A stretch of DNA of 64,000 nucleotides from Pseudopedobacter saltans DSM 12145 (lineage in GTDB: Bacteria; Bacteroidota; Bacteroidia; Sphingobacteriales; Sphingobacteriaceae), in assembly GCF_000190735.1 (NCBI RefSeq), contig NC_015177.1:806001-870000 (forward strand), written 5' to 3'. Shown in pieces: positions 35,964 to 60,146 of the stretch. The notes under the pieces are model-generated. The model had not been told where the DNA came from. It ran no database searches and saw nothing but the letters and a program-made list of their open reading frames with translations. Made by a program: the position numbers and the translations under genes. Numbering within the stretch: position 1 is the stretch's first letter; each line of letters starts with the position of its first letter.

Positions 35964-35982
35964 ATAACCTAAACAGAAAATT

Positions 35983-39261: not shown

Positions 39262-39277
39262 TTAAACACCTAACAAT

Positions 39278-41194: not shown

Positions 41195-41212
41195 TTTAAA
41201 AATTTATAAAGT

Positions 41213-42157
41213 ATGAAAATTATAAAACTAGCATTTATTGCATTAATATATTCTTCCATTATTTCTTGCAACAGAGACATTGAAATCTCTCCAGGGCTGG
41301 AAGAATTTGAAGTAAGTACAGACAAAACAATTTATAAAGTTAACGAAGAAGTAAAGTTTAATCTAAAGGGAAACCCGGATATCATCTCTTTTTATTCTGG
41401 AGAACTTTATAGCCAGTATGAATATAAAGAGGCCAGGGAAATTATTTTAGATAAAGCAATCCTGAGTTTTAGCAGCACATATCCGGATGCAACATCCACT
41501 ACCGTTCTACAAAATCCAGACTTCAAAGTGTTGGTATCTACCGACTTTAATAACGTTTATAACTATGAAAGCTTAAATGCTGCCAATTGGATAGATATTA
41601 CTTCACGATTTAATATTCAAACATCTGGAATTGCTGCTGTTGCAGCAGGATCGTACCAAATTTCTGATTTAGCAGTACCGGGAAAGCCATTGTATATAGC
41701 ATTTAAGTACGCAAGTAAAAAGCAAGAGGAATTTGGTAAAATAAGAAGAAGAACAATTACGCTTTTTAATGTAACTGGCACATCAATATTTGGTGATCAT
41801 CTTTTGGGAAATCCATCATCTTCTAATTTCAGGTTAATTGAAAAGAGTGAGGATTCTAAAACCTTATCAAGTATAACTTCAACAACACTTACTTTTAATG
41901 GTTATTCCAGGTCTTTACCTACTGATCCGGATCCCGAGACTGATACCTGGATTGTTTCTAAAGCTTTTGATTTAGGAGTACTAGATAACGGTCCCGATAG
42001 GCCAATCGCTATTAAGGGGAATGTAGATCCGGCTTTAACGACTCACTATCATGCTTTTACCAAAGCAGGCGAATACATAGTTACTTTTGTTGGTATTAAC
42101 GCAAATGTTAGTGGTAGAAAAGAAATTGTTAGACAGGTTAAAATAACAGTAGAATAA
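41213..42157 (+). CDS. DUF5017 surface glycan-binding lipoprotein (second copy)
   Basis: A 314-residue lipoprotein (lipobox SIISC, Cys19). FEVSTDKTIYKVNEEVKFNLKG and ISFYSGELYSQYEYKEAR match the DUF5017 pattern and the paralogue at 22018. The end is a PKD/Ig-like strand (FTKAGEYIVTFVGINA). It follows SusD-3 by 18 bases. Expected role: extra surface glycan binding. Confidence 0.83.
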   Translation: MKIIKLAFIALIYSSIISCNRDIEISPGLEEFEVSTDKTIYKVNEEVKFNLKGNPDIISFYSGELYSQYEYKEAREIILDKAILSFSSTYPDATSTTVLQNPDFKVLVSTDFNNVYNYESLNAANWIDITSRFNIQTSGIAAVAAGSYQISDLAVPGKPLYIAFKYASKKQEEFGKIRRRTITLFNVTGTSIFGDHLLGNPSSSNFRLIEKSEDSKTLSSITSTTLTFNGYSRSLPTDPDPETDTWIVSKAFDLGVLDNGPDRPIAIKGNVDPALTTHYHAFTKAGEYIVTFVGINANVSGRKEIVRQVKITVE

Positions 42158-42243: not shown

Positions 42244-45200
42244 ATGAAGATAATACTTACTTTTTTGAGTGCAATTTTTTATGCTCTGCCTAGTCCAGCA
42301 CAGCATAAAGAGAAGCAGGTTATACAACAAATAATAACAGAAAAATTACCGACTGGACTAAAACCTTATTATCCAGGAAGTCAGTTTTCATTATTAAAGA
42401 ATAATCTATCAAATGTTGTAATCGTAAAATCAGATGATATAAAAAGAGATGATTTGGCGACACAGATACGGGATTTTTTAAAAAAGAAATGGAAAATAGA
42501 AATACCGATAGTTAACTGGAAAGAAGCACAAAAGTCAACAAAAAATCTTATACTTTTTGGTACCGTTAATGAAAATACTCCCTTAAGACAATTAAATGCA
42601 AATTTTCAATTAGGCGATAATGAATTTGGTTATGAACTGAGGAGTATAGTCAATGCTTTAGATTGGAATAGGAATGTAATTTATATTGGATTTAAAAATA
42701 ATAAAGACTTAGATAAAGCACTTGATATATTAACCACAAAAGTGAAAAATCCTGATAAGATTGAACACTTTATAGCTTGTGAAGGATGGGAAGAGCGACT
42801 TTCTGATAGCCGTTTACAGTCTATGGTTGAAGGAATGAAATCCTATTATAGTAAAAATGCAAGTTATGTACTCACACAATTTGCTATATCAGATTCGTTG
42901 AAATACATATCTAATCTTTATAAGATGACAGGATATGCTCCATATGTTACAACTTTTGCTAAAATGCAAAATATAGTATTTGAAAACTATGGACTAACCA
43001 TTAACGGTCGCACCGAAACAGCACCAAGTTTTTCATTTTATCTGTATCCACAGCTTGTTTACATAATGGAACAATCTCAAAACTTTACTTCTGAAGATAG
43101 GCTGGCGTCAGCTGAGTTCATGAGAAAGATTGTCGAAGAAATGATGGTGCATTGGGAGATGAAAGATCCTCTGAGGTTGTATAACGATGGAAAACAGGAA
43201 TACCTAACCAATCACTCTTGCTTCGCTTCCAGATCAGTTTCGTCGGCTGCAAGATATTTACAAGCGAGATATAACTTCGAGCCAGCGAAGTTTTGGATAA
43301 ACGTTGCTGACAACGCTTTTGCAGGTGTTGCTCCTCATCCTTTTTCTCCGGAGGACGCAGCAGGGTATCAATATTTAGTATACCAAATATTTATTGATTA
43401 TGCATTGGCAAGTGGTGTTTATGACTTAGATTTTTTTGAAAATGATACTTTTAAAAATTATGTAGAATTCTGTAAGTTACAATTTAATCATTTAGGCTAT
43501 ACAGCAGGTTTTGGCGATGCGAATCCCATGGGACATGATGGGGGATACACTGTTTTGAAATATGCAGTAGATATTTTGAGAGATAAAGAAGCTGAGTATT
43601 TAGTTAGTTTAATTGAGTCTCGGAGACAAAATAAATTGAAAGAGTTTCCTTTTACTAATTCTCCGGGAGTCGAAAGTTTGGGGCTAAAGTATCAGGAAGT
43701 AGTGCCTTTTAAACAAGAACAATACGAAGTTGGAAATTATTATAACAAACCTACCTTAGATAAAGCTACATTTAGAAGTGGATGGGACAAAGAGGCTGAT
43801 TTTTTATCAATTACTGGTATAAATGGAGACGGATATAACCACGGTCATTTTGATGCCAATGGAATTAGCCAATATATTTCAGGAAATAAACTATGGTTGT
43901 GGGAGGGAGATTACATTAAGAAATTTCCAAATGACCATAACTCAATAGTAGTTAATAAAGACGGAAAATTACCGGATCAGACTAGGAGTTTGAAAAAAAG
44001 GAGGAAATCTTCGTTATCACAAATACTTGCGGCAGGTAATACCCCAAAAAGAGGAAATTCCTTATTATCTATAATGTTGGAGGATTATAATGGTACCAAT
44101 TGGACTCGTAATATTAATTATATAGCAAAATCCGGTTTTTGGGTAATAGACGAATTAGATATACAGGAAGAGGGAAACTATATTGCAGAAGCATATTGGC
44201 GAAGTACAGGAGCAGTTTCATCGCTAAAGCAGGGATACAAAATAACTCAGAAAAAATCTGATGAGCAGGATGACGCTACGGCATTTTATGTTATAGAAGG
44301 ATCTGGAGCTAACAGATTTAATAGGACAGTGTTCGAAGACATGCATGGCAGAAAAGATGGTAATCTATCTGGTTATATGTTCTCTGACAGAAATACTCAA
44401 TATATTATTCACCGTAAAGATGGTAAATATAAAAAAGGAGATAAGATTTTATTCATAAATTTTATGCAAGCTGCTTCTGGAAAAAATTCTAAATCACCAG
44501 AAATTAGAAAAGTAACCGAAAATATGTTCGTTGCCAATACAGAGGTTTTTAGAGCAGTAATTTTAGGCGCATTTTCTAATAAATTTATGGATATAGATGC
44601 GGATATATGTTTTATAGGTCCAGAGGGGATTGTAGCCAGAGGAGCCAATAAATTGAATATAGGGAGCTTTAAATGGCAGAGTTTAAATAAACAAAATGTT
44701 TTTATAGAGCTTCCAAAGGAATTATCAGTGGAAGACCTACAACAAAGACTTGCAAACTTAAATCAACAAGCTAAATTATCTTTACCTACAGAATATAATA
44801 ACGTAAATGTTCCCAAAAATAATCAGGTTGTTATAGGAGATTATTCCTCAAATATTTCTGTAATGTCTTCATTTGTGGATAGGTATGCTGTTGGAGGACA
44901 AAATGGTTTGTTTTCCATTAGAAATGAAAATGGAGAGGAGTTGGCAAGCCGAAAATTTACAAAAGCAATTAGCGCAATATGTGCAGTGAAAACTTCAAAA
45001 GGAGTGTATTGGGCAGTTGGGGTAGAGCCTGTTAATTCTCGTATTGGTGAAGGAAAGCTCTATTTTTTAGACCAGAATGCAGAAATAGTATGGCAGCAGT
45101 CAATACCTTTATATCAAAAGAGAAATGGAAAGATTACTACACTTTTTACCGCAAAAGTTAAAGACACATCTGAACCATTAATTATAGCAGGAGCTCAATC

Positions 45201-45858
45201 TTGGCACTATTTTGCTTTCTCTACAGCAGGGAAACAAATATGGAAACAAGCGGTCTTTCACGGAGCTACAATTGGTGCAGCGGGAGATATGGATGGCGAT
45301 GGTTCGGATGAAGTGGCGGCAGGAACTGAGTACTATTATCATTCGATCATTAAAGATGGAAAAGTATTACCGCATACAGTTACTTCCCCCTGGGTATATG
45401 CGCTTGCTGTCATGGATCTAAACGGAGACGGGTTAAAAGAAGCTGTATATGGCAGAGGCGATGGTTATTTGTATGTGCAAGCGATTGATAAAAATCCTGT
45501 AAAACCCTGGACTTTAAATATTGGAGGAAAGCCAACAGCTATTGTTCCGATAGAAAAAAATGATATAAAGATCGCCGTTTCTAATGCGCTGGGCAATATA
45601 ACGTTTGTTGATGGAAATGGAAAAGCCATCAAAACAGTAAACTTACCATTGTCAATAGAGGATATGGTTATGTCCAAGCAAAAATTATATGCAGTATGCG
45701 CGGACAATTATATCTATAAGTTAAACTTAAATGGAGATGTATTGGAGAAGTATCCTTACCTTTTAGATAGAGGTTCCATATATACCCCGAAGATAGTAGA
45801 TACAGATAAGGCAATACATGTTTTCTCTGGTAAAAAGATTTTTTCCGTGTCGAAGTAA
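42244..45858 (+). CDS. multidomain heparinase-fold lyase with C-terminal FG-GAP/VCBS propeller
   Basis: A 1204-residue exported protein (signal peptide ending SPAQ). An N-terminal alpha/beta domain at about 40-185 (VIVKSDDIKRDDLATQIRD) resembles the small N-domains of some glucuronidases and hexosaminidases. An alpha/alpha toroid (about 190-500) follows. A heparinase II/III-like beta-sandwich has NGDGYNHGHFDANGISQYIS near residue 531. The final 350 residues look like a beta-propeller with Ca-type repeats (GDMDGDGSDEVAAG at about 1013; MDLNGDGLKEAVYG at about 1056). It is the last gene of the second Sus operon, in the same slot as the lyase at 23032. The domain combination is unusual, and the cleavage specificity is unknown. 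Confidence 0.75.
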   Translation: MKIILTFLSAIFYALPSPAQHKEKQVIQQIITEKLPTGLKPYYPGSQFSLLKNNLSNVVIVKSDDIKRDDLATQIRDFLKKKWKIEIPIVNWKEAQKSTKNLILFGTVNENTPLRQLNANFQLGDNEFGYELRSIVNALDWNRNVIYIGFKNNKDLDKALDILTTKVKNPDKIEHFIACEGWEERLSDSRLQSMVEGMKSYYSKNASYVLTQFAISDSLKYISNLYKMTGYAPYVTTFAKMQNIVFENYGLTINGRTETAPSFSFYLYPQLVYIMEQSQNFTSEDRLASAEFMRKIVEEMMVHWEMKDPLRLYNDGKQEYLTNHSCFASRSVSSAARYLQARYNFEPAKFWINVADNAFAGVAPHPFSPEDAAGYQYLVYQIFIDYALASGVYDLDFFENDTFKNYVEFCKLQFNHLGYTAGFGDANPMGHDGGYTVLKYAVDILRDKEAEYLVSLIESRRQNKLKEFPFTNSPGVESLGLKYQEVVPFKQEQYEVGNYYNKPTLDKATFRSGWDKEADFLSITGINGDGYNHGHFDANGISQYISGNKLWLWEGDYIKKFPNDHNSIVVNKDGKLPDQTRSLKKRRKSSLSQILAAGNTPKRGNSLLSIMLEDYNGTNWTRNINYIAKSGFWVIDELDIQEEGNYIAEAYWRSTGAVSSLKQGYKITQKKSDEQDDATAFYVIEGSGANRFNRTVFEDMHGRKDGNLSGYMFSDRNTQYIIHRKDGKYKKGDKILFINFMQAASGKNSKSPEIRKVTENMFVANTEVFRAVILGAFSNKFMDIDADICFIGPEGIVARGANKLNIGSFKWQSLNKQNVFIELPKELSVEDLQQRLANLNQQAKLSLPTEYNNVNVPKNNQVVIGDYSSNISVMSSFVDRYAVGGQNGLFSIRNENGEELASRKFTKAISAICAVKTSKGVYWAVGVEPVNSRIGEGKLYFLDQNAEIVWQQSIPLYQKRNGKITTLFTAKVKDTSEPLIIAGAQSWHYFAFSTAGKQIWKQAVFHGATIGAAGDMDGDGSDEVAAGTEYYYHSIIKDGKVLPHTVTSPWVYALAVMDLNGDGLKEAVYGRGDGYLYVQAIDKNPVKPWTLNIGGKPTAIVPIEKNDIKIAVSNALGNITFVDGNGKAIKTVNLPLSIEDMVMSKQKLYAVCADNYIYKLNLNGDVLEKYPYLLDRGSIYTPKIVDTDKAIHVFSGKKIFSVSK

Positions 45859-46074: not shown

Positions 46075-48012
46075 ATGTATAACAAAATTTTATTAACACT
46101 ATTAATACTTTTTCCGGGAAGAGTATTTTCACAGATAAACTATACTAACCTAGGGCCTCAGCTATTTAGTAATACAATAGAAGGCAGTGCTTTTTATAAA
46201 GCTGGTGATGGAAAAATATATATTTATACTGTAGTAAGAGGTCAACCGGCACATTTGCTTGGCTATGACTTAAGCAATAACAGTTTGGTTACAAACATCG
46301 CTTTGGAAGAAATCACAGGTGCTTCCTCTGTTGTGTTTTCAACCGATGGCATTCTTTATATAGGTGGCGGCAATGTATATACTTATATACCCGGGAGCAC
46401 TACGGTTAGCAACCAGGGAAAAGCTTTTGGAACCGAAACGACTCTGTACGATTTGAGAGCGGGAAATAATGGAGCTATATATGGAGGTACTTATCCGGGC
46501 TGCCGGGTATTCAGGTATCATCCGAATGAGGGATTCTCGGATGCCGGGTCTGGACCAATCGTTCCCGGAGAGAACTATGTAAGGTCTATGGCCTACAATA
46601 AAAACACAAATAAGATATACGCCGGTGTTGGTGCCCATGCATCTTTAATAGAACTGGACCTGACAACTGGTAGTAAGCGAAATATCCTACCATCAACCTT
46701 CAGCGACCAGCAGTTTGTATACAGCCTGACTCTTATAGAAGACTTGTCCGGAGGAGACCGACTTTTTATTACAGTCCAAAATGCCGCTATTTCACTGGTA
46801 TACAATATAACTACCGAGACTTTTGAATATCAGGGAAAAGAGGTCTATACAAAAGCCGCAATTAAATCTCCTGCAGGCAATGAGGTATACTTTACACACG
46901 GGAATAAACTTTTATCTTACCCCAATATAGCATTTGGTAATTATGCGCCGGTATTTGTTACGAATATCTCTTCTAACGCCAGAGCATCAGCCTTTATAGA
47001 TGGCACTTTATACACATTAACTACAACCGGAGAGGTAATAAAATATGATCAATCCAATTGTATCGTCTCGAAAAGCAATCTTATTATACCCGGACAACCT
47101 GATGATTTAATTACAGCGCATAAAGGCCCGGCAAATACAATCTGGACCAGCGCACACGTGACAGGAGCAAATTCATCCTACAATCCAGCGACAGGAATAA
47201 GCCAGATTTTTGAAGGGATGAACCAAACCGAGAGCGCGGGACTATACAATGATAAACTTTATTTCGGTACCTATACAAAGTCCCGATTTTACGTTTACGA
47301 CAGCAATTTACCCTGGAATATGGGAAGTAATCCCAAGCTTCTGGGTAGTGCAACGGAACAGGACAGACCATTTGGTGGTTTAGGAATACCGGAAGAAGGC
47401 AAAGTCTTTTTTGGTACTGTACCTGCTTACGGTGCTAACGGCGGGGTATTGGTAGAATTTGATGTCAATAGTAACAACCTAATGACTCAATACACCAATG
47501 TAGTTTCAAATCAATCTATTATTTCTCTAGCCTATAACAATGGCAAATTATTTGGCGGAACTTCAATCTGGGGAGGTCTGGGCAGTACTCCTGTTGCTAC
47601 AGAGGCGAAGCTATTTGTCTGGGACATCGCAACAAAAACAAAAGTTCACGAAATTACACCTGTAAGCGGAGCAAAAGCCATTACCTGTTTAATTAATGGT
47701 AACGACGGATATATTTGGGGATATGCGCAGGGGTATCTCTTTAAGATAGATCGGTCAAATTACAATATTGTCTCCAGTTCAAAAATTCTTAACGACACCA
47801 GGTCAAGTCATTTGTGGAGACCGGACAATCTGGTTTTCAATGCCAAAGATAACATGTACTATGCTAGTATCGCTCACAGAATTTACAAATTAGATCCGCA
47901 GAATATGGTGCTTACGGCATTAGATCGGTTAGGTGCTTATTTAACTCTCGGACCGGATAGTGAAATGTATTTCTTTAGAGGTCCAGATTTATGGAAAATG
48001 GAAATTAATTAG
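46075..48012 (+). CDS. secreted beta-propeller protein, possible lyase (propeller 1)
   Basis: A 645-residue exported protein (signal peptide ending RVFSQ). Repeated four-strand blades run the whole length (KIYIYTVVRGQPAHLLGYDL; GAIYGGTYPGCRVFRYHPNE; NKIYAGVGAHASLIELD; LVEFDVNSNNLM). Blocks such as FGGTSIWGGLG and EAKLFVWD are shared with the paralogue at 56168. Two families of uronate-cleaving lyases (ulvan lyases PL24/PL25 and rhamnose-glucuronate lyase PL42) are seven-bladed propellers, so a lyase role is possible, but no catalytic motif can be asserted by eye. Binding or structural propellers are the alternative. Confidence 0.7.
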   Translation: MYNKILLTLLILFPGRVFSQINYTNLGPQLFSNTIEGSAFYKAGDGKIYIYTVVRGQPAHLLGYDLSNNSLVTNIALEEITGASSVVFSTDGILYIGGGNVYTYIPGSTTVSNQGKAFGTETTLYDLRAGNNGAIYGGTYPGCRVFRYHPNEGFSDAGSGPIVPGENYVRSMAYNKNTNKIYAGVGAHASLIELDLTTGSKRNILPSTFSDQQFVYSLTLIEDLSGGDRLFITVQNAAISLVYNITTETFEYQGKEVYTKAAIKSPAGNEVYFTHGNKLLSYPNIAFGNYAPVFVTNISSNARASAFIDGTLYTLTTTGEVIKYDQSNCIVSKSNLIIPGQPDDLITAHKGPANTIWTSAHVTGANSSYNPATGISQIFEGMNQTESAGLYNDKLYFGTYTKSRFYVYDSNLPWNMGSNPKLLGSATEQDRPFGGLGIPEEGKVFFGTVPAYGANGGVLVEFDVNSNNLMTQYTNVVSNQSIISLAYNNGKLFGGTSIWGGLGSTPVATEAKLFVWDIATKTKVHEITPVSGAKAITCLINGNDGYIWGYAQGYLFKIDRSNYNIVSSSKILNDTRSSHLWRPDNLVFNAKDNMYYASIAHRIYKLDPQNMVLTALDRLGAYLTLGPDSEMYFFRGPDLWKMEIN

Positions 48013-48160: not shown

Positions 48161-49078
48161 ATGAGAAAAATTACAACCAGAATTTTCATTGCATTATGTG
48201 TTAGCTCTTTATATTCTTACGCTCAAAAGGGAGAGTGGGAAAAACCGGGAGGTATTTGGGAATATAATATGAGTAAAAAAATGCCTGGACAGGATTCTAT
48301 TAGTGGTGATAATTTACAATTTGCCTCTTCGGCTGGCAAAGAGGCATTTTTAGTTAGTCCTCCATCCGGATCTGCTATGGTTTCTTCTACAAAAGGTAAT
48401 CCTTCCTTTATACGCAAATCTGGCTCAAATGCAGGTTTGAAAATTAGAGGGGCTAGTACAGACGGTTCCCCTACTAAGTTTGCGGTATCTGGTATTAAAG
48501 ATGCTACTCCTGTGATGAGTATTTCTTTTACCATAAAACCAGACCATAACGCAACAAAAACAGATTGGTATTTTGTTTTGGGTAAAAGCTCTCCTATTTT
48601 TACCGACCCAGGTACTATTTTACCGATTAGTAAAACCGGTTCTTCGCCTAACGGGCATATTTTTGCTTCTTTCAGGATACAGTCCAATGCTTCTTTTGGA
48701 GATAAAGCGTCTAACAATTACAGGCTACAGTTAAGACAGCAACCCGAGCTGGAAGAGGATATTACATGGACAAACAACAACACGGCTCTATTTAACAAAG
48801 GGAAAAGCCACCAGGTAGAGATATATGCCAATAATGGGGTTACTGCACAAAAGTATACGTTGAATGGCACCGAACACACCTTGCCTGCCCGTACTTATCA
48901 TTTATGGATTAATTCGACTCAATTTGGAGGTAATCTTCCGGCAAATGCAATCAGACGCAACCAGCCTATAGATGCTTTTCTATTGATGTCCAGAGACGCA
49001 GTTGCGGGCACAGACGGCCCTTCTAATCTTTCAACGCTGGAAATTAATAATGTTAAGGTGAAATATGCTTCGAAATAA
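48161..49078 (+). CDS. secreted protein, single shared beta-rich domain (array member 1)
   Basis: A 305-residue exported protein (signal peptide ending SYAQ), with no lipobox and no T9SS domain, so probably periplasmic. The mature part is one domain of about 280 residues. Elements shared with the next four proteins are GGIWEYNMS near the start, PVMSISFTIKPDHN...DWYFVLG in the middle, HLWIN with a following short-linker strand, and DAFLLMSRDAV...LSTLEINNVKVKYA at the end. The pattern suggests a jelly-roll/concanavalin-like sandwich. It is the most divergent of the five. I do not recognise the family; a carbohydrate-binding or lyase domain is plausible from the PUL context only. Confidence 0.75.
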   Translation: MRKITTRIFIALCVSSLYSYAQKGEWEKPGGIWEYNMSKKMPGQDSISGDNLQFASSAGKEAFLVSPPSGSAMVSSTKGNPSFIRKSGSNAGLKIRGASTDGSPTKFAVSGIKDATPVMSISFTIKPDHNATKTDWYFVLGKSSPIFTDPGTILPISKTGSSPNGHIFASFRIQSNASFGDKASNNYRLQLRQQPELEEDITWTNNNTALFNKGKSHQVEIYANNGVTAQKYTLNGTEHTLPARTYHLWINSTQFGGNLPANAIRRNQPIDAFLLMSRDAVAGTDGPSNLSTLEINNVKVKYASK

Positions 49079-49102
49079 TTTTTAACCTTCAAGATCATAA
49101 CC

Positions 49103-50623
49103 ATGGAAAGAAAAATCATACTAACATTTTCTATTCTGGGACTGTTAGCTATGGCAGCCCAGTCTCAAACTTACTGGAAATCGAGTCTGGGTAAAGGAGA
49201 TGTTATTTGGGAGTATGACTTTACAACAAGTCCCCAAAATATAAGTGGTTATGGTCTTGCAGAGGTTTCAACATCAACATCTCCCACTTTTTTACCCAGT
49301 CCTGTTTCTGGCAATGTAGCCATAACTACTTATCCCCGTTCTGTAAACGCAACGCTAAATTCCCCAGCTACATTTTTATTGAGTGGCAGCTGTGTGACCT
49401 CTTCTTTAACCATGACATCTACAGGCGGCAATGGAGTTGTGGACAATACCGGTGTGAGTAGTTTTGTTATAAATCAGATTCCGGGTTCTACAGAAATCAT
49501 GAGTTTACATTTTAATCTGACTTTAGGTGCAACTTATGGAAATACTAACGCTAACTGGTATTTTATAATAGGAAGGGCTTCGCACAATTTGCTTGGTACT
49601 ACAAATACCAAAAGCTTTGAGCATACCAAAAAACATGATCACGACGACAGGATTTACGCGGTTTGGAGATACATTAAATCTCCAACTTATCCTACAAGAT
49701 TCGCATTTTCAAAAATGGCTCAATCTCCTGCTGATTTCAGTGACGGAAAAGGAAAAACCTGGACAAGTGAATCTTCAGGAAATCTGGAGTCTAATACTTC
49801 CTATGCGATAGATATATACTGCAATAATTCAAGCTCTCCCCAACAATATATACGCAATGAAACATCCGTGAGTTTGGCATCTGGCCAATACGCGATTTAC
49901 GTTGATGGCAGTTTAAAGGACACTTTTGATAAAAATGCTATTGCATCAAGCTCAGCCAGGCCTTTAGACGGATTTGCAATTTTCTCCAGAGACCCGGCTA
50001 AATCGGGTACCGAACAGGACAATTCCTCGTCACTTTCAATTAGTAATCTTAAAGTGGTATATCTGGGTGCTGTTTCCACAACACCGGTAACGCTAACAGA
50101 TTTTAATGGAAATGCAACAAATACTGGCATTGCTTTAAACTGGCAGACCGCAAACGAACAAAATAACGCTCACTTTATACTTAACCGCTCTATAAACGGG
50201 AAAGACTTTTCTTATTTAACCCGTGTAGAAGGAAATGGTACAAGCAATAACGTGAAACATTACAGCTATACGGATAAAAACCCATTTACTGGTACTAATT
50301 ATTACCAGTTGGAGCAAATAGATAAAGACGGGACAAAAACTGTAATAGATAAAATTGTTCCTGTTAAATACCTAGTTTCTGAGGAGGTGTTTAATATTTC
50401 TAAAATATCATCCAATCAGTTAAAAGCTTTTGTTTTTTCTGAAAAAGGTGAAGATGCCGAGCTAAGCATTACAGACATTTCTGGAAAAGTTATTTATAAA
50501 GCAACCAGAACCTTAAAACAGGGAAGCAACCACATCGATTTATTTATCTCTGCTAAGCCCGGTGTTTATGTAGCTACTTTAAAAGGAACAACAGGAACGA
50601 AGAGTGTCAAATTTATTTTATAG
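49103..50623 (+). CDS. T9SS-secreted protein with shared beta-rich domain (array member 2)
   Basis: 506 residues. The signal peptide is followed by YWKSSLGKGDVIWEYDF, which opens the shared domain (about 24-325, including IMSLHFNLTLG, ANWYFIIG and GFAIFSRDPA). A T9SS-type sorting region covers about 327-506 (NWQTANEQNNAHFILNRS; YYQLEQIDKDG; ISGKVIYK; PGVYVATLKG). It should be exported across the outer membrane and anchored on the surface or released. It is in the same run as array member 1, 24 bases downstream. Confidence 0.8.
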   Translation: MERKIILTFSILGLLAMAAQSQTYWKSSLGKGDVIWEYDFTTSPQNISGYGLAEVSTSTSPTFLPSPVSGNVAITTYPRSVNATLNSPATFLLSGSCVTSSLTMTSTGGNGVVDNTGVSSFVINQIPGSTEIMSLHFNLTLGATYGNTNANWYFIIGRASHNLLGTTNTKSFEHTKKHDHDDRIYAVWRYIKSPTYPTRFAFSKMAQSPADFSDGKGKTWTSESSGNLESNTSYAIDIYCNNSSSPQQYIRNETSVSLASGQYAIYVDGSLKDTFDKNAIASSSARPLDGFAIFSRDPAKSGTEQDNSSSLSISNLKVVYLGAVSTTPVTLTDFNGNATNTGIALNWQTANEQNNAHFILNRSINGKDFSYLTRVEGNGTSNNVKHYSYTDKNPFTGTNYYQLEQIDKDGTKTVIDKIVPVKYLVSEEVFNISKISSNQLKAFVFSEKGEDAELSITDISGKVIYKATRTLKQGSNHIDLFISAKPGVYVATLKGTTGTKSVKFIL

Positions 50624-50660
50624 CGGTAAAAAATGAATGAAACAATTCTTATTTAATTGC

Positions 50661-50672
50661 GGGTACGCAACC
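50661..50672. promoter_or_regulatory. LacI-type operator before array member 3
   Basis: GGGTACGCAACC matches GGTTACGTAACC at 10 of 12 positions and is centred 45 bp upstream of the ATG at 50712, in the 88-base gap between array members 2 and 3. Confidence 0.5.
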
Positions 50673-50711
50673 TTAAACGAACAATATTACTAACCATTAA
50701 AAATCACAATT

Positions 50712-52247
50712 ATGAAAAAACTATTACTAATCACAACTTTCATAGGTTTGTTGAACACCGGTAAAGCTCAAACTTACTGGAAAGCGGATGTCGCGAACAG
50801 CAAAGGCGATGTTATTTGGGATTATAGTCTTGCTGTTCCCGCTGCAAAATCAATACAAGAAATTAATGTCAATTCAGAATCTACTCCGGATGCTGAAGGT
50901 TTTTTACCTAAACCTCCTTCCGGTACAGTAGCAGTAAGAACTTATACGAGTACTAATCCCGACCCCAATACCAGTCCTGCTGGTTTTTCTTTAAGTGGAA
51001 ATACTTCTCCTTCTCTGACTATGATAGCAACAAGTGGTCCTTCAAATGCTGGCCCCTCAGCTACGGCTGCAACGAGTAAGTTTGCTGCCTATGGTTTTGC
51101 TAATGCAACAAATGTTATGAGCTTGCATTTTAATATGACATTAGGTGTAGAGCCATCTAATTCTAAGGCTAACTGGTATTTTATGATAGGAGGAAATTCG
51201 TATCCCGGCATACTTACCAATCAAGGCAATATGGTTACATCAACTGCAGAAACGGCTGCAGGGGTATATGCCCATGATAATAGAATTTTTGGTGCTTACA
51301 GGTTAAATAAATCATCTGAAGGTGGAGATTATGTGCACACTACTATGGGAGTAACTTCTATTACCGCCCCTGGAGGTAGAACCTGGTCTGGTGCTGTTGA
51401 TGCAAATTTAGCTGCAAATACAGCCTATAAGATAGATATCTTTTGTAATAACTCTACTGCTACAGTAAAATATATTCATCCTGGAACTGGAGCCGAGACA
51501 GATTTAGCCGCGGGCAAATATGTGATTTATATAAATGAAGATCTAAAAGGCACTTTTAATAAGCTTGAGGTTACAACCAGCCAAAACCTAAGGAGTTTTA
51601 TGATTATGTCCAGAGATGCGGCTCAAAGCGGCTCTGTTCTTGATAATTCAGCGTCACTTACTATAAGTAATTTTAAGGTAGTACATTTAGGAACTATTTC
51701 TACAAACCCTGTTAACCTAACAAGTTTCATCGGAAAAGCAACAAACAGCGGTATAGCTCTAAACTGGCAAACCGCAAGCGAACAAAATAATTCACACTTT
51801 ATACTTAGCCGCTCTTCCAACGGAAAAGATTTTTCTTATTTAACCCGTGTAGAAGGAAATGGTACAAGCAATAACGTGAACCATTACAGCTATATAGATA
51901 GGGCTCCTTTTGCCGGTGTTAACTATTACCAATTGGAACAAGTTGATAAAGACGGGACAAAAACTGTAAATAAATCATTGTATGTGAATTATAAAAGTAC
52001 AGATGCTGATTTTGTGGTTTCCAGATCTTCTAACAACAATTTAAAAACAACCTTAAATGCCAGCAGAATCGAGTGGTCAGAAATTATAATTACTGATATT
52101 GCAGGTAAGGTAATTTACAAAGGGAAACATCTATTGTCAGAAGGTAAGAATGAAATTGAAGTGCCTTTATCTGGTTCCAAACAGATGGTTTCTGTCGTTT
52201 ATGTACAGACAGCAACGGAATCTAAAAGCGCTAAACTGATATTGTAA
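50712..52247 (+). CDS. T9SS-secreted protein with shared beta-rich domain (array member 3)
   Basis: 511 residues with the same plan as member 2: signal peptide (ending GKAQ), YWKADVANSKGDVIWDYSL, the shared domain (FLPKPPSGTVAV; VMSLHFNMTLG; NWYFMIGG; SFMIMSRDAA...SLTISNFKVVHLG) to about residue 330, then the T9SS region (NWQTASEQNNSHFILSRS; YYQLEQVDKDG). The last 70 residues differ more from member 2 than the start of the sorting region does. It is closest to member 2 in the shared domain. Confidence 0.8.
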   Translation: MKKLLLITTFIGLLNTGKAQTYWKADVANSKGDVIWDYSLAVPAAKSIQEINVNSESTPDAEGFLPKPPSGTVAVRTYTSTNPDPNTSPAGFSLSGNTSPSLTMIATSGPSNAGPSATAATSKFAAYGFANATNVMSLHFNMTLGVEPSNSKANWYFMIGGNSYPGILTNQGNMVTSTAETAAGVYAHDNRIFGAYRLNKSSEGGDYVHTTMGVTSITAPGGRTWSGAVDANLAANTAYKIDIFCNNSTATVKYIHPGTGAETDLAAGKYVIYINEDLKGTFNKLEVTTSQNLRSFMIMSRDAAQSGSVLDNSASLTISNFKVVHLGTISTNPVNLTSFIGKATNSGIALNWQTASEQNNSHFILSRSSNGKDFSYLTRVEGNGTSNNVNHYSYIDRAPFAGVNYYQLEQVDKDGTKTVNKSLYVNYKSTDADFVVSRSSNNNLKTTLNASRIEWSEIIITDIAGKVIYKGKHLLSEGKNEIEVPLSGSKQMVSVVYVQTATESKSAKLIL

Positions 52248-52335
52248 TACCTATTAATATTTTCAGGGCGATCTTAATCATAAGTTTCGCTTTTGAAAAT
52301 TAGAGGTTATCTATTAACACTTATATTTTGAAATT

Positions 52336-54987
52336 ATGAAAAGAATATTATCATTATTAAGTTTAGTTATAGGGATTAGTATCGCTACAGAGGCTCAGAT
52401 TATCAGGTATGTAGCCCCAAGCAGCATGGGAACGGCAGACGGATTAACAGCTGCAAATGCTTCGGATTTTTTAGATGCCTCTTTTTGGACAGCTATCCAG
52501 AGTTCTCTACAAACACAACCTGTAGTAGTGAAGTTTATTGCCGGCGACTATATAAGAGCTTATACCGAACAGTCTTTAATCCTAAACGAGATGGGGCATT
52601 ATAGAAATAACTTGATACTCGAAGGTGACGCTGGAAATACTATTTTTACCGCTCCAACCGGGTACGCTACCAAAACAATTATATTCTCTTTAGTGAACTG
52701 TCAGAATATAAGCGTAAAAAACTTTCATTTTACAGGGAACGGCAGTGTAGATTATGTATTTAGGGTTACTTCTACCTCAGGAAAAACAAGTAAAAATATT
52801 TTAATAGAAAATTGTCGTTGGGAAGATATGCGGGGTATTGTCTATGGGGCATCAGGCACTGCATCCGGTACATCTTATGTTACATTTAAAAACTGTACAT
52901 TTAAGAGAATCGGATTAAATGCTGGTTCGCACATGATATATAATGCTTATGATGCGCATCATATCAGCGTTATAGATTCTCATTTTGAAGATTGTACGGG
53001 AGATTACGTAAGGTTCAGAGACAATTTAGATTATGCCATAGTTAAGGGCACAACTTTTATAAGAAACCCTGGTTTTGATAGTTATCCTTTTATCTCCATG
53101 CCTCTTTTTAATGATGTCAATCCGGGTGATGAAATTTTTGCTACCAATTATTCATTTACCGACAACACATTTACTAATGCTACAGCAGCCATACAATTTT
53201 TCAGCCAGGGCTATGATCCTGCAGATCGAAATCATTTACTTACGGCACAGGAAGGTGCTATGCTAACAAGCGGAACAGACCAACAGAAAAAAGATGTATT
53301 GCTAAATAATTATAAAATTAATACCGACTTGGTAAGGATAAATAATAATACTTATAATAATATATCCAAACAGGTAATTTTAGTTAGCAATATTGGTTAC
53401 GGTTCTGTATCTAAGGGGTGGACAGGGGAGGCAAATATCTCGGGCTTGTTTAACAATAGTGATGAACCGTTGCCTTGGGAAGGAGACCAGTATGCTTTCT
53501 CTAAGTGGGTAGAATCAGGGGCTTTAAAAAACATTGAATGGAATTATTATTTTACCGGGGGAACCAGTACTGTATCAGGAACTGGGGGAATAATAAGAAC
53601 CTCTACGACTTCGATTATGGATTTTCTGCCAAAAACTACTTCCGGCGAAGCCTCTATCATGACACATACCAACACGACGGTCAACTCCTCTTCTTTTACG
53701 CTCAATGGCAACGGTTCATCTTTAACTATGGTTCATACAGCCGGGAACGGAACAGCTGTATCTCCTGCTAAATTTTCTGTAAGAAGTTTTGAGGCATCAT
53801 CTAAGGTAATGAGCGCTCATTTTGATGTAACATTAAGTAATACAGCCCAAAACAAACAGGCTATATGGTACATTGCCGTAGGAGATTCAACAGCATTGCC
53901 TATTAAAAACACAGACAGTGCTCCCTCAATTACAGGCTCTACCTCTACCGCTGATAAATTGTATACTGTATTAAGAATAAGGAAAGTAGCTTTCGGTAAT
54001 TCATATGCTGTTCAGGCAAGGCATAATGATGGCAAACAGACAAACCCAACAACTAATTGGGGTTGGCAAACTATAACGGGAGCAACATTAACCAGTGGCA
54101 ACGTAGCTAAAATAGCTTTGTTTTTCAATAATACCGAGAACCAACAGCAATATATCTTTAATGGGGTTACTAAAACTTTAGCGGCTGCATCTTATCATAT
54201 TTATATAGATGATGTGCAAAAAGGAGCAACATTGACTAATTTAGTCAGAAATACATATCCGACAAATGGAAATATAAAGTATACGGGAGACTTATCGGGT
54301 TTTTCTATTATGAGCAGGGAAGGGGCAATGTCATTTACTACTGAAGACACAGGAACTACAGGCCCTTCAGCGTATGACAATTCTGCATCTCTAATGGTAA
54401 CCAACTTTCAAATTGTCCACCTTGCTACTCCAACAACTACACCAGTAACACTAACAGATTTTAGCGGAAGTGCAACAAACACCGGCATAGCTTTAAACTG
54501 GCAGACCGCAAGCGAGCAAAACAATTCTCATTTTATACTTAACCGCTCTATAAACGGGAAAGACTTTTCTCATTTAACCCGTGTAGAAGGAAATGGTACA
54601 AGCAATAGCATAAACCATTACAGCTATATTGATAAAACCCCATTTGCGGGTACTAATTATTACCAATTGGAGCAGATAGATAAAGACGGGGCAAAAACTG
54701 TAATAAATAAAATTGTACCTGTTAAATACTTGGTATCTGACGAAGTGATTAGCATTTCCAAAATATCATCCAATCAGCTAAGAGCCTTTTTTAATTCTGA
54801 AAATGGCGAAAATGCCGAGCTAAGCATTACAGACATTTCAGGAAAAGTTATTTATAAAACAAACAGAGTCTTAAAGCAGGGAAATAACCAGATAGATTTA
54901 TTTGTACCTGTTAAACCCGGCGTTTATGTAGCTACTTTAAAGGAAACAGCAGGAATGAAGAGCGTTAAGTTTACGCTATTAAATTGA
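52336..54987 (+). CDS. beta-helix plus shared domain plus T9SS sorting domain (array member 4)
   Basis: 883 residues in three parts. About 20-385 is a right-handed parallel beta-helix of the pectate-lyase/PL6-like type (IRYVAPSSMGTADG; NILIENCRWEDMRGIVYG; YVTFKNCTFKRIGLN; SVIDSHFEDCTGDYVRFRDN). About 388-695 is the shared domain (WVESGALKNIEWNYYFTGG; VMSAHFDVTLS; GFSIMSREGA). About 700-883 is the T9SS region. The beta-helix is a common fold of polysaccharide lyases and related enzymes, so this fusion ties the unknown domain to glycan processing. Catalytic residues cannot be assigned by eye. Confidence 0.8.
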   Translation: MKRILSLLSLVIGISIATEAQIIRYVAPSSMGTADGLTAANASDFLDASFWTAIQSSLQTQPVVVKFIAGDYIRAYTEQSLILNEMGHYRNNLILEGDAGNTIFTAPTGYATKTIIFSLVNCQNISVKNFHFTGNGSVDYVFRVTSTSGKTSKNILIENCRWEDMRGIVYGASGTASGTSYVTFKNCTFKRIGLNAGSHMIYNAYDAHHISVIDSHFEDCTGDYVRFRDNLDYAIVKGTTFIRNPGFDSYPFISMPLFNDVNPGDEIFATNYSFTDNTFTNATAAIQFFSQGYDPADRNHLLTAQEGAMLTSGTDQQKKDVLLNNYKINTDLVRINNNTYNNISKQVILVSNIGYGSVSKGWTGEANISGLFNNSDEPLPWEGDQYAFSKWVESGALKNIEWNYYFTGGTSTVSGTGGIIRTSTTSIMDFLPKTTSGEASIMTHTNTTVNSSSFTLNGNGSSLTMVHTAGNGTAVSPAKFSVRSFEASSKVMSAHFDVTLSNTAQNKQAIWYIAVGDSTALPIKNTDSAPSITGSTSTADKLYTVLRIRKVAFGNSYAVQARHNDGKQTNPTTNWGWQTITGATLTSGNVAKIALFFNNTENQQQYIFNGVTKTLAAASYHIYIDDVQKGATLTNLVRNTYPTNGNIKYTGDLSGFSIMSREGAMSFTTEDTGTTGPSAYDNSASLMVTNFQIVHLATPTTTPVTLTDFSGSATNTGIALNWQTASEQNNSHFILNRSINGKDFSHLTRVEGNGTSNSINHYSYIDKTPFAGTNYYQLEQIDKDGAKTVINKIVPVKYLVSDEVISISKISSNQLRAFFNSENGENAELSITDISGKVIYKTNRVLKQGNNQIDLFVPVKPGVYVATLKETAGMKSVKFTLLN

Positions 54988-55050
54988 TCCGGTAATACAA
55001 CGTTAAAACTAAAAATTATAAGAAAATATTAACTATTTAAATAAATACAC

Positions 55051-56058
55051 ATGAAAAAAAATACGTTATTTTTATTATCAGCTTTAACCATAGCTAGCTT
55101 TCACACAAAAGCCCAATGGGTTGAATCCGGAAACCAAAAAAACATTGTTTGGGAATACAGTTTTGCTGGTACAACAAGCACAGTGACAAATTCTGGTAAA
55201 GGAATAGAAAAAACATCAACTCCCTCATCTCAGGACTTCCTTCCAAGACCAAAATCTGGAGAGGTTAAAATTATCGCAGGTGAAGAAAACGGAACTGGAA
55301 AATCTTCTTTCACCCTTAATAACGAGGGGAGACCCTCTCTAACCATGGTGCATACCAGCGGACGGGGTTTTGCTCCGGCTGCGGCAAAATTTATTGTCCG
55401 GAATTTCGAAGTTAAATCAAAAGTGATGAGCTTACATTTTAGCTTAAAACCAGGTAATACCGCCGAAAACAAACAAGCTATATGGTATTTTATTGTCGGA
55501 TCGGGGACGAATTCCAGTGTTGGTGGGGCAGGGGCACCAATCATATCGGCAGCTGGTAACGTAGATAAAGGAGTATATACCCTTTTCAGACTTAGAAAAG
55601 CTGCTGTTGGAGGAAAGTACAGTTTACAAGCAAGATATAATGATGGCACTCAACCAAAAGCTGATAATAACTACTGGGGTTGGCAAACAATATCAGGAGT
55701 GAGCCTGACAAGTGATAAGGAAACAAAGTTTGATATATTCTGCAATAACACAGATGAAAGCCAATTGTATACTGTTAACGGAACGCAGAAAACATTACCT
55801 GCAAAAGCTTATCATATTTATATAGATGGAGTGCAAAAAGGTGCAGGTAGTAATGAAGCCGCAAAATTAGTGAGAAATGAAGGTGGAGTTGATAAGGATA
55901 TATATTATACTGGAGATCTAAACGGCTTTAGTATCATGTCTCGTGAAGGAGCACATTCAGATCTAAAGAATGCTGACGGCACCATTAGTTATGACAACTC
56001 TGCGTCATTAATGATAAGTGATTTAAAAATAGTTCATCTCGCGGCAGCAAAAAAATAA
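55051..56058 (+). CDS. secreted protein, single shared beta-rich domain (array member 5)
   Basis: A 335-residue exported protein (signal peptide ending TKAQ). The whole mature chain is the shared domain and it is closest to the middle domain of member 4: WVESGNQKNIVWEYSFAG, TSTPSSQDFLPRPKSGE, SLTMVHTSGRG, VMSLHFSLKPGNTAENKQA, IWYFIVG and GFSIMSREGA...ASLMISDLKIVHL. There is no T9SS region, so it should remain in the periplasm. It ends just before a terminator. Confidence 0.78.
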   Translation: MKKNTLFLLSALTIASFHTKAQWVESGNQKNIVWEYSFAGTTSTVTNSGKGIEKTSTPSSQDFLPRPKSGEVKIIAGEENGTGKSSFTLNNEGRPSLTMVHTSGRGFAPAAAKFIVRNFEVKSKVMSLHFSLKPGNTAENKQAIWYFIVGSGTNSSVGGAGAPIISAAGNVDKGVYTLFRLRKAAVGGKYSLQARYNDGTQPKADNNYWGWQTISGVSLTSDKETKFDIFCNNTDESQLYTVNGTQKTLPAKAYHIYIDGVQKGAGSNEAAKLVRNEGGVDKDIYYTGDLNGFSIMSREGAHSDLKNADGTISYDNSASLMISDLKIVHLAAAKK

Positions 56059-56167: not shown

Positions 56168-58147
56168 ATGAAAAAAACAATCAATTTACTCCTGTTATCT
56201 TTTTTTGGTATGTCTGTTTCGGCGCAAGATTTAACAATAATTCCGAAAGAAAATTTTAAGGTAACCAATTTGGGCCCTCAGGTAACGGATATCGTTTTGC
56301 AGGGAAGTGTTTTTGCCAAAGATCCGGACGGAAAAATATTAATATATACCGTGATTAGAGGAACTCCAGCTCATTTACTTGCCTTTAATATCGAAACCCG
56401 AAAACTGGTAATTGATTTACCATTACCAAAAACGGATGGATCATGGGATTTAGAAGTTAGCTCAACAGGGATAGTCTATGTTGCTGGTGGCGCTGGAGGA
56501 TTTTTTTATAAACATGTTCCCGGTACAAACAAAGTAGATAATATAGGGAATGTTTTAGGAACAGAAAAATATATATGGGACTTATCTGCAGGTAAGGATG
56601 GTGAAATTTACGGTGCAACTTATCCAAATTGCAGGGTTTTTAGATATCACCCAAATGAAGGTTATACAGATTTCGGAAACGGGCCTTTGGTAGAAGGAGA
56701 AAATTATGTGAGAGGGTTGGTATACAATCACACCAGTAAGAAAATTTATGCCGGTATTGGTTCTCATGCACATCTCATAGAACTGGATACGAAATCTAAA
56801 ACGAAGGTTAGTTTATTGCCACAAGAATATAAGTCGGCGCAGTTTGTATATGACATAGGCCAGGTACAGGACTTAAAATCGGGCGACAGGATTTTCTTTA
56901 CCGTTGCCGGAGCAAAAAAAGTACTTGTTTATAACATCACAAAAAAAAGATACGAAGCAGAAATGCCCGAATTCCCAGTAAAGGCTATAATTAAAGATCC
57001 GGCAACAGAAAAAGTATACTACGTTCATAACAGTAAACTGATGATGCTGGACTATAAAGAAGAAAAGCCAACCCCTGTAGAGCTTTCCAATTTCAGAGGA
57101 AAACCTTTAGCTTCTGTATGGAATGAAAAAGGAGAACTCGTATTCCTGAACAGTTATCAGCAAATCATAACCTTTAATCCAGTGACTTCTCAGCAAAAAG
57201 CACAGTCTTTGATAGATGTCCCTGCTCAACCTATATCCTTAACCTATATAGATATTGGACCCGATAAAAAAATTTGGTCGGGAGGATATTTAGGTGGTAG
57301 TAACGCTGCTTATGACTTAAAGAAGAATAAGGCTACGGTATATAAGGGGCTAAGTCAAACAGAAAGTGTTACAAAGCTAGGTTCTAAGATATACTTCGGT
57401 AATTATCCTAAAGCCAAATTTAATGTGTATGATATTTCAGAGGAATGGAGTATTAAAGATAAAAATCCTAAACAAATAGGGGCTGTTGATGGGCAGGACA
57501 GGCCCTTTGGTGCATTAGCTGTGCCATCTTTAAACAAGGTGTATTTTGGTACAGTTCCGGAATATGGAATCAACGGAGGCGCTCTGGTAGAAATAGATGG
57601 AGCAACTGATAACGTTGTAAGTCTGGGAGAAATCGTTCAAAAACAATCTGTCATTACATTGGCCTTTCAGGGGGATATGCTGGTAGGAGGTTGTTCAATA
57701 TGGGGTGGATTGGGTATTCAACCGGTAGAAAAGGAAGCGAAGCTATTTGTCTGGGATCCCATGAAAAAGCAAAAAGTATTTGAGATTGTACCAGTACCCG
57801 GTGCAAAAGCGATTACATCACTAATAAATGGTCCGGATGGAAATGTTTGGGGGTACGCAGGCGGTACGCTGTTCAAATTTGATTTGAAAAAGAAAGCAGT
57901 AATACTAACTAAACATATTTTTAATGATAAAAGAGATTCATTTCTGTGGAGACCTGATACATTTGTTGTTCATCCAAATGGAATGATATATGCCGCTTTA
58001 GATGGGAATTTAATTTCATTAGATCCAAAAACACTGGATATGAAATCCTTTAATGTCTCAGGATCAGACCTTATTATGGGTTTGAATAAAGAGATGTATT
58101 ACAGGCAAGGTAAAGAAATATGGAGTTTGGATATTATAAAAAAATAA
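56168..58147 (+). CDS. secreted beta-propeller protein, possible lyase (propeller 2)
   Basis: A 659-residue exported paralogue of the protein at 46075 (signal peptide ending VSAQ). Shared blocks include NLGPQVTDIVLQGSVFAKDP, GATYPNCRVFRYHPNEGY, GENYVRGLVYN, KIYAGIGSHAHLIELD, CSIWGGLGIQPV, EAKLFVWDP and PGAKAITSLINGPDG. It is placed directly after the five-protein array, so the array is bracketed by two propellers. It starts a short run with the esterase and SGNH genes (22 and 0 bases apart). As for propeller 1, the PL24/25/42-type propeller lyases are the closest functional idea, unproven. Confidence 0.72.
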   Translation: MKKTINLLLLSFFGMSVSAQDLTIIPKENFKVTNLGPQVTDIVLQGSVFAKDPDGKILIYTVIRGTPAHLLAFNIETRKLVIDLPLPKTDGSWDLEVSSTGIVYVAGGAGGFFYKHVPGTNKVDNIGNVLGTEKYIWDLSAGKDGEIYGATYPNCRVFRYHPNEGYTDFGNGPLVEGENYVRGLVYNHTSKKIYAGIGSHAHLIELDTKSKTKVSLLPQEYKSAQFVYDIGQVQDLKSGDRIFFTVAGAKKVLVYNITKKRYEAEMPEFPVKAIIKDPATEKVYYVHNSKLMMLDYKEEKPTPVELSNFRGKPLASVWNEKGELVFLNSYQQIITFNPVTSQQKAQSLIDVPAQPISLTYIDIGPDKKIWSGGYLGGSNAAYDLKKNKATVYKGLSQTESVTKLGSKIYFGNYPKAKFNVYDISEEWSIKDKNPKQIGAVDGQDRPFGALAVPSLNKVYFGTVPEYGINGGALVEIDGATDNVVSLGEIVQKQSVITLAFQGDMLVGGCSIWGGLGIQPVEKEAKLFVWDPMKKQKVFEIVPVPGAKAITSLINGPDGNVWGYAGGTLFKFDLKKKAVILTKHIFNDKRDSFLWRPDTFVVHPNGMIYAALDGNLISLDPKTLDMKSFNVSGSDLIMGLNKEMYYRQGKEIWSLDIIKK

Positions 58148-58169: not shown

Positions 58170-59477
58170 ATGTTAAAGGACATTTTTTCGAAATATGGTA
58201 TTGTAGGCATATGGTTAATTTGCTTTTGTATTTCTTTAGGTGCGACGTCTCAGCCTAAACCGCAAGATCTTACAATAGAACTCTCCTTAAATAATAATGA
58301 TTGGATTTATAATATAGGAGAACAGGTATCTGTGTCAGGAGTGGTTAAGTACAAAGGGAAGTCACTTGACAGTGTGAAAGTTAAATATGATATCGGTCCT
58401 GAAATGTTAACTGCGATAATAGCCGATAGTATAATTATTACCAATGGCAGTTTCGTCCTTCAGGCAGGTACCATGCAAAATCCGGGTTTTTTAAGATGTA
58501 CAGTTAAGGTTGAGTATAAAGGGAAAGAATATCGAGAGGTAATAACTGCTGCTTTTGATCCTAATAAAATTGCTCCTACAGTGGATATGCCTTCAGACTT
58601 TATGGATTTTTGGCAGAAGGCTATAAAAGACAACAGGGAAATACCTTTAGATCCTAAAATGACCCTCTTAAAAGATAGATCTACAGAAGAGCTTAACGTA
58701 TATGAAATTTCTTTCCAGAATTACAAACTGGGCAGTAGGATATATGGCATTTTATGTGTTCCAAAATCACCGGGGCGTTATCCGGCAATATTCAACCCTC
58801 CGGGTGCCGGAATACATAAAATTCAGGGCGACCTAACTACCGCCAAAAATGGTTTTATTACATTACAGATAGGTATACATGGAATTCCGTTAAACATGGA
58901 GCCCGAAGAATACAAAAAACTTGCTAACACTACCTTTAAAAGATACAGGGTAGAGGGAATGGAAAATAAAGACACCTATTATTTTAAGAGAGTGTATCTG
59001 GGCTGCGTAAGAGCAATTGACTTTATATATACGCTACCCGAATTTGATGGTGAAAATATAGCAGTAACTGGAGGAAGTCAGGGTGGAGCTTTAACTTTGA
59101 TAACAGCTGCATTAGATAAAAGGATAAAATATTTGGCGGCCTATGCCCCTGCATTATCCGATCTTACTGGATATTTACATAATCGAGCCGGTGGCTGGCC
59201 ACATATGTTTAAAACGTCTATTAATAATAATGAAAAACTAATAAATAGCTTGCAGTATTATGATGCGGTAAATTTTGCTAAACACATACGGGTGCCGGGC
59301 CTGTACAGTTTTGGATATAATGACGAAACTACACCGCCTACAAGTATGTTTTCTGCGTATAATTCAATAATGGCTCCAAAGGAATTATACGTGGTAAAAG
59401 AAACAGGGCATTGGTATAACAGATTACAAACTGAAAAGCGAGCCGATTGGTTACAAAACAAATTAAGAAAAAATTAA
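58170..59477 (+). CDS. acetyl-xylan-esterase-like alpha/beta hydrolase
   Basis: A 435-residue exported hydrolase (N-terminal hydrophobic segment WLICFCISLGATSQ). An N-terminal beta domain (about 30-135) precedes the AXE1/CE7-type catalytic domain. The nucleophile Ser is in TGGSQGGAL (about 302), the acid in GYNDETTPP (about 384) and the His in ETGHWYNR (about 411). Family members remove acetyl groups from oligosaccharides. The next gene, an SGNH hydrolase, is probably a second deacetylase, which suggests an acetylated substrate. Confidence 0.85.
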   Translation: MLKDIFSKYGIVGIWLICFCISLGATSQPKPQDLTIELSLNNNDWIYNIGEQVSVSGVVKYKGKSLDSVKVKYDIGPEMLTAIIADSIIITNGSFVLQAGTMQNPGFLRCTVKVEYKGKEYREVITAAFDPNKIAPTVDMPSDFMDFWQKAIKDNREIPLDPKMTLLKDRSTEELNVYEISFQNYKLGSRIYGILCVPKSPGRYPAIFNPPGAGIHKIQGDLTTAKNGFITLQIGIHGIPLNMEPEEYKKLANTTFKRYRVEGMENKDTYYFKRVYLGCVRAIDFIYTLPEFDGENIAVTGGSQGGALTLITAALDKRIKYLAAYAPALSDLTGYLHNRAGGWPHMFKTSINNNEKLINSLQYYDAVNFAKHIRVPGLYSFGYNDETTPPTSMFSAYNSIMAPKELYVVKETGHWYNRLQTEKRADWLQNKLRKN

Positions 59478-60146
59478 ATGAAGTGTTTAAAGTACGTAGC
59501 ATTAGCTTTTGCTCTTTTTTTGTGTTATGAAAACAGCATAGCACAAAAACCGTCACGTTTTCAAGCTAATATCCAGAAGTTTAAACAACTGGACAGCATT
59601 AATCCACCGGCTAACAGCCCTATTTTGCTAATTGGCAGCTCATCTTTCACTAATTGGAAAGATGTACAATCTTATTTTCCTGAATATACAATTATAAATC
59701 GAGGCTTTGGGGGATCTCAGTTTCCGGATTTGATAAGACATGCAGATGACGTTATCTACCCCTATAAACCTAAACAAATTATAATTTATTGTGGAGATAA
59801 TGACTTGATGACCAAAAATGCTACACCACAAAATGTATTTGATAATTTCAAAACATTGTATAATGGTATCAGGAGTAAATTAGGGAAAAAGGTGAATATC
59901 ACTTTTATTTCTATTAAGCCTAGTCCAAGAAGGCGGCATCTTATCCCTCGAGTAGTAGAAACCAATGCTTTGATAAAGAGTTTTTTAAAAAAAGATAAGA
60001 ATGCCGGATATGTCGATGTCTATAATAAAATGCTGGCTGCGGACGGTGAACCCATAAAGACGATATTTTTAAAGGACAGTTTGCACATGAACGCTTCAGG
60101 CTATGATATTTGGCAAAAAGAGATAAAGCCTGCTTTATTAAAGTAG
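59478..60146 (+). CDS. SGNH/GDSL-family esterase
   Basis: A 222-residue secreted hydrolase (signal peptide ending SIAQ). Block I PILLIGSSSFTNW (about 48-60) has the catalytic Ser. Block II is NRGFGGS, block III YCGDNDL, and block V DSLHMNASGYDIW (about 199-211) holds the Asp/His pair. The family includes carbohydrate acetyl-esterases and rhamnogalacturonan acetylesterase-like enzymes. It starts directly after the stop of the upstream esterase and is surely co-transcribed with it. Confidence 0.87.
   Translation: MKCLKYVALAFALFLCYENSIAQKPSRFQANIQKFKQLDSINPPANSPILLIGSSSFTNWKDVQSYFPEYTIINRGFGGSQFPDLIRHADDVIYPYKPKQIIIYCGDNDLMTKNATPQNVFDNFKTLYNGIRSKLGKKVNITFISIKPSPRRRHLIPRVVETNALIKSFLKKDKNAGYVDVYNKMLAADGEPIKTIFLKDSLHMNASGYDIWQKEIKPALLK

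Follow-up and report, generated by a model that had tools for sequence, protein, structure and literature searches.

A probable polymer-binding module in Pseudopedobacter saltans: an unnamed family of exported domains with a predicted concanavalin-A-like jelly-roll fold

In the 64,000-nucleotide stretch of Pseudopedobacter saltans DSM 12145 analysed here (the window, to which all coordinates refer unless another locus is named), five consecutive ORFs on the + strand, with intergenic gaps of 24-88 bp, encode proteins of 305, 506, 511, 883 and 335 aa that have in common a domain of ~280-300 residues, here called D. The 305-aa protein (48161..49078) comprises a signal peptide and D only (~48236-49063); the 506-aa protein (49103..50623) carries D (~49175-50059) and a T9SS type A tail (~50429-50617); the 511-aa protein (50712..52247) has D (~50778-51683) and a diverged T9SS-like tail (~51684-52244); the 883-aa protein (52336..54987) has a beta-helix-like N-terminal part with a weak DUF4957 match (~52681-52944), then D (~53506-54417) and a T9SS tail (~54787-54972); and the 335-aa protein (55051..56058) is again D only (~55117-56034). 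The bounds of D in all five were set by iterated HMM. A sequence-only reading had described five tandem genes built on one such domain, occurring alone, with a T9SS domain or flanked by a beta-helix on one side and a T9SS domain on the other; its coordinates were exact and these architectures were borne out.

With the 335-aa protein as query against its own genome, the other four array proteins were recovered at E 1e-87, 4e-30, 2e-25 and 7e-23, and an alignment of the five domains, which are 29-54% identical in pairs, displayed 29 invariant columns. Judged by this search and alignment, the common domain of the five proteins is one of true homology, as the sequence-only reading had held. The landmark motifs it had claimed for all five copies are found in four of them, with the 883-aa copy reading FLPKTTSG at the FLPxPxSG landmark; the 305-aa copy is worn, having no SLTM, VMSISF instead of VMSLHF and SNLSTLEINNVKV as its end. 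A sixth copy of D lies ~20 kb beyond the window in the same genome, within a protein comprising PL6 (Chondroitinas_B), D and a T9SS tail.

All five array proteins start with a signal peptide and have Q at the predicted mature start, which points to export as predicted by the Bacteroidetes Q-rule of a Q at the mature start after the signal peptide (PMC10653852). The 506- and 883-aa proteins have the features of T9SS cargo, with type A tails above cut-off (TIGR04183, NCBIfam) and the machinery present in the genome (core GldM plus 35 T9SS-tail matches). The tail of the 511-aa protein had no library match in NCBIfam and is 59-61% identical to the tails of the 506- and 883-aa proteins. The 305- and 335-aa proteins end with D, with no match for a sorting tail in Pfam or NCBIfam; because they are without such a tail, D-only proteins are probably periplasmic. 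As for the beta-helix of the 883-aa protein, its DUF4957 match (E 2.8e-5) is under the gathering score in Pfam. Some D proteins of other loci (L088:7989-9842, L095:8690-10573, L098:7952-9136 and L135:8261-9442) carry lipoprotein-like signal peptides, not T9SS tails, a second way of anchoring D.

The tails of the 506- and 883-aa proteins share 80% identity at the protein level and 85% at the DNA level, with dS of 0.44, whereas their D domains are 46% identical, with dS above 3; the nearest array relative of the 883-aa D is the 335-aa D (54%). Since its D is closest to that of the 335-aa protein while its tail nearly matches that of the 506-aa protein, the 883-aa gene is, by these comparisons, a mosaic of a D of the 335-type lineage and a tail recently common with the 506-aa gene.

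The array is flanked by a pair of propeller-like proteins, one of 645 aa without family (46075..48012, +) and its 659-aa paralogue (56168..58147, +; 44% identity), and this pair recurs with the window-type locus in other genomes. Neither has a convincing PDB relative, even as profiles; a short match of the propeller profile to Scone-E (2.8e-6) was not counted as a family. The same locus harbors two TonB-dependent transporter (SusC-like) genes with SusD and DUF5017 genes (32859..42157, +), a gene for a 1204-aa protein (42244..45858, +) that is a candidate heparinase II/III-like lyase and carries an FG-GAP region at its C-terminus, and AXE1 acetyl xylan esterase-like and GDSL esterase genes (58170..60146, +). 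For the 1204-aa protein, Pfam yielded no family over the first 1000 residues, the putative catalytic part, and there was no convincing PDB relative, even as profile; it contains a conserved HGHFDANGISQY stretch of heparinase II/III-like look with no family match, has orthologs in the same locus elsewhere (69% and 45% identity), and may be an unclassified heparinase-like lyase. A 905-aa protein (23032-25749) in a neighbouring SusC/SusD locus of the window gave a weak match to the heparinase II C-terminal domain (HepII_C). The next 40 kb contain GH88 and three PL6-type genes. We surmise that the likeliest substrate of the array's locus is a uronate-containing, acylated polymer.

Pfam analysis of the five array proteins returned the T9SS tails, the weak DUF4957 helix and sub-threshold noise, with no family for D, and NCBIfam recognized T9SS tails and no D family in the window copies. 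An expanded set of 63 diverse D domains (mutual identity under 60%) likewise matched no Pfam family and no CBM model, and no sequence relative was found in the PDB with either the window copies or the 63-domain profile. Weak Pfam matches (Glyco_hydro_42C at E 0.1; single matches to Pertactin, fn3 and others) were not repeated across members and were taken as chance, and a weak PDB match to RsgI3 covered one hairpin only. Profile comparison with LamG (PF13385) by hhalign was insignificant (E 0.16), with no Pfam match, and PL7 (PF08787) and PL20 (PF14099) gave no profile match in Pfam or in hhalign with sequences of relatives; hhalign is a weak test here, as it also fails PL7 against PL20 and aligned D with LamG, PL7 and PL20 about as poorly as with SusD. 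When the collection was first scanned with the 335-aa protein, no relative came up, and the five-row D alignment was too diverged for a pattern search; no plasmid match and no literature describing D were found. The sequence-only reading had matched the domain to no named CAZy or Pfam family, and profile searches of Pfam (63 domains) and the PDB for a well-characterised family, together with NCBIfam for the window copies, support the absence of a known family in those libraries. Across Pfam, NCBIfam, the PDB and the literature, D thus represents a real, so far unnamed sequence family of known fold class. To see here a candidate for an undescribed system, as that reading did, was too strong, since the T9SS, loci with SusC/SusD and binding modules added to other proteins all belong to known kinds; the undescribed part is the sequence family.

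AlphaFold2 models built with 19 aligned sequences were all-beta, both for the 335-aa D of the window (pLDDT 79, pTM 0.84) and for a Pedobacter D of another clade (pLDDT 84.5, pTM 0.88). In Foldseek comparison with the PDB, the window model matched legume lectins, Emp47p, PL20, PL18, PL7 and Cip1, and the Pedobacter model matched best the lyases PL36, PL14 and PL18 and also SasG/Aap lectin domains and calreticulin. These matches reached E 5e-6 with TM-scores of at most 0.55, scores that place the fold class of D and not its family. The two models bear out the jelly roll that had been suspected and predict D to be a two-sheet jelly roll of the concanavalin-A-like (ConA-like) class.

D was found in 10 of 18 genomes of its own genus, and in at least 26 of 401 genomes of a family sample and at least 9 of 395 of a phylum sample, both lower bounds as few candidates per genome were scored. 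Hosts include Pedobacter cryophilus, ureilyticus, xixiisoli, chitinilyticus and nanyangensis, Pedobacter sp. ASV17 and Desertivirga xinjiangensis. Among 100 D proteins, classed by length and with tails not all checked singly, 27 were D alone, 42 D with a C-terminal tail, 23 D behind another domain and 8 of other make-up; about two thirds were without an enzyme domain. As is characteristic of CBMs, D occurs as a discrete module on different catalytic domains, namely PL8 (in two architectures), PL7, PL6, GH5 and GH18, and other partners include a DUF4955/pectate-lyase-like beta-helix, Endonuclease I, Exo_endo_phos and Big_2. These enzyme fusions, together with the polysaccharide-utilisation context, uphold the carbohydrate link that had been proposed. 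Fusions to Endonuclease I or Exo_endo_phos occur in secreted proteins (L068:7383-10586, L098:11753-13540 and L135:3812-5611), and from such partners the ligand of D may sometimes be nucleic acid or a phosphorylated glycan.

Around D, the SusC/SusD loci contain PL8, sulfatase and GH88; GH18, GH20 and a CBM96 protein; PL17, PL6 and a SASA esterase; or GH92 and an SGNH esterase. Phylogenetic analysis of 100 D domains joined those of the GH18/GH20 type in a single clade (27 rows, support 95) and likewise those of the window type (support 82). With one D per locus and labels given by hand from neighbouring enzymes, locus type changed only 4 times among 43 loci (minimum possible 3 for four labels) vs. 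a mean of 22 and a lowest value of 18 on shuffling. Architecture changed 23 times, and host genome, with 75 changes vs. 81.8 when shuffled, explains almost nothing. The few changes in locus type and the many in architecture suggest that a D lineage goes with its locus type while the carrier protein is swapped. This pattern in the tree supports polymer specificity of the D lineages and does not prove it, because co-inheritance of whole loci gives the same pattern. Genomes of genus g2 have the same locus as the window with one D each, that of locus L071 matching the 335- and 883-aa copies and that of L072 matching the 305-aa copy (59% identity to this ortholog), so that at least two D paralogues would predate the split from those loci. 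The view that the domain was amplified for this substrate holds in that the five copies group in one clade together with the single D of each of the two orthologous loci, but at least two of the array paralogues are older than the split.

We favor the reading that D is a new family of non-catalytic, CBM-like polymer-binding modules on a ConA-like jelly roll, and consider it probable, with appreciable room left for other explanations. The modularity of D, its context, fold and locus specialisation, the lack of a catalytic set, module exchange and export all argue for such a role. Counting against it are the fold in common with catalytic lyases together with the modest scores (TM at most 0.55), the roughly two thirds of D proteins that carry no enzyme domain, an unusual make-up for CBM proteins, the nuclease fusions, which leave room for ligands other than sugars in some cases, and the match of D lineage to locus that plain co-inheritance would also produce. 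Jelly-roll lyase active sites do occur with a Lys/Asn/Tyr/Arg composition, and D has Y36, K113, G150, N232, N233 and Y240 (335-aa numbering) as near-universal residues, K113 being 94% conserved; PL14/PL36-type lyases use a catalytic Lys with Tyr/Arg in their concave groove. Were D a new catalytic jelly-roll polysaccharide lyase (or hydrolase) family, its clades would differ in polymer specificity, periplasmic and surface forms would work as pairs and the window copies would be five enzymes for one polymer. The lyases PL36, PL14 and PL18 as best matches of the better model (with PL20, PL18 and PL7 for the window model), the retention of K113, N232, N233, Y240, Y36 and often of two Arg, and the many D proteins with no other domain all speak for such an enzyme. 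However, D often sits on a protein that already has a complete enzyme from a different family, the polymers of the D loci and partner enzymes have no single bond in common, and the Arg/Glu positions are not kept: R180 (76%), R195 (86%) and E228 (77%) differ from one locus type to another and also inside a type, with M in place of R195 in 2 of the 7 window-locus rows, unlike what a catalytic site common to the family would show. A Lys/Tyr/Asn site might still be present. No conserved catalytic residue set was found across D; with respect to the PL7-type set (Arg, Gln, His, Tyr), there was no conserved Gln or His set, with Arg positions at 76% and 86%. The missing profile similarity to PL7 and PL20 of relatives adds to this, within the limits of a test that misses PL7 vs. 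PL20. We regard a catalytic D as unlikely but still worth keeping in view, and of the earlier wording, carbohydrate-active or carbohydrate-binding, the carbohydrate link stands while catalysis is weakened by the residue pattern and by the chemically different polymers of the partners.

D might also be a structural or cell-surface docking domain, contacting the cell or a partner protein and not a polymer, as it accompanies secreted proteins of unrelated activity, nuclease-type included, often sits directly before the T9SS tail and keeps its N/N/Y/K cluster constant in all contexts. Yet D lineages track locus (polymer) type and not host genome, which would be needless for a generic docking part; many D proteins have no T9SS tail; and D is present in only a few of the T9SS-tail proteins of the genome, so that we deem this role rather improbable. 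We consider it highly improbable that decay has left the 305- and 335-aa proteins as remnants and that the array is a functionless by-product of recombination: the tail exchange does attest to recombination within the array, but all frames are open, dN/dS for array D pairs is below 1, albeit with dS near or past saturation, and many genomes have a D-only form at the corresponding position of a conserved locus.

As a binding module, D would resemble CBM96 (PF24517), a carbohydrate-binding module of T9SS enzymes (PMC9971899), and CBM113 (UKD), found in Bacteroidota enzymes of several classes with T9SS tails (PMC13235733), in being a non-catalytic add-on module. CBM113 comprises ~127 residues between two Cys (structure 9KVN; PMC13235733) vs. 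~280 in D, and was set apart as the identity of D on size; among the chains of the PDB copy searched, the D profile also matched none of this kind. CBM96 likewise was not matched by any of the 63 domains in Pfam, and both occur in locus L081 as separate proteins. By the models, D belongs to the same fold class as the lyases PL7, PL14, PL18, PL20 and PL36, and in some proteins a PL7-like domain accompanies D, but we found no sequence or profile similarity and no common catalytic set between D and these lyases. The predicted fold class also includes legume-type/L-type lectins, SasG/Aap lectin domains and LamG, the last being similar, by eye, in strand order near the C-terminus; D has no Pfam match to these families, and LamG gave only the E of 0.16 noted above. 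In lying beside SusC/SusD as a presumed non-enzyme binder, D is comparable to SusE/SusF-like and DUF5017 surface glycan-binding proteins. Those glycan-binding proteins are mostly surface lipoproteins, whereas in most D proteins a type I signal peptide is combined with a T9SS tail or with no anchor.

With D as a binding module, we postulate that every polysaccharide-utilisation locus has retained a separate lineage of D, adapted to the polymer of that locus. Following export via the Sec pathway, for which the signal peptide is seen in the sequence, D with a T9SS tail would reach the cell surface and hold the polymer alone or beside a fused lyase or hydrolase, and D without a tail, probably periplasmic, could bind imported oligomers before their cleavage. 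Duplication and tail exchange would have generated the five variants of the window, which, next to the SusC/SusD importer and the candidate lyase, could offer a single complex polymer several binding specificities or several sites. If this is true, roughly half of the genomes sampled from one Sphingobacteriaceae-type genus, and a thin scatter of others in Bacteroidota, contain an add-on domain that has stayed without a name despite its fusion to well-studied lyases and hydrolases. With lineages sorting by locus type, the sequence of D could be read as a marker for polymer specificity, and D could also furnish probes that bind polymers of the glycosaminoglycan, alginate and chitin kinds.
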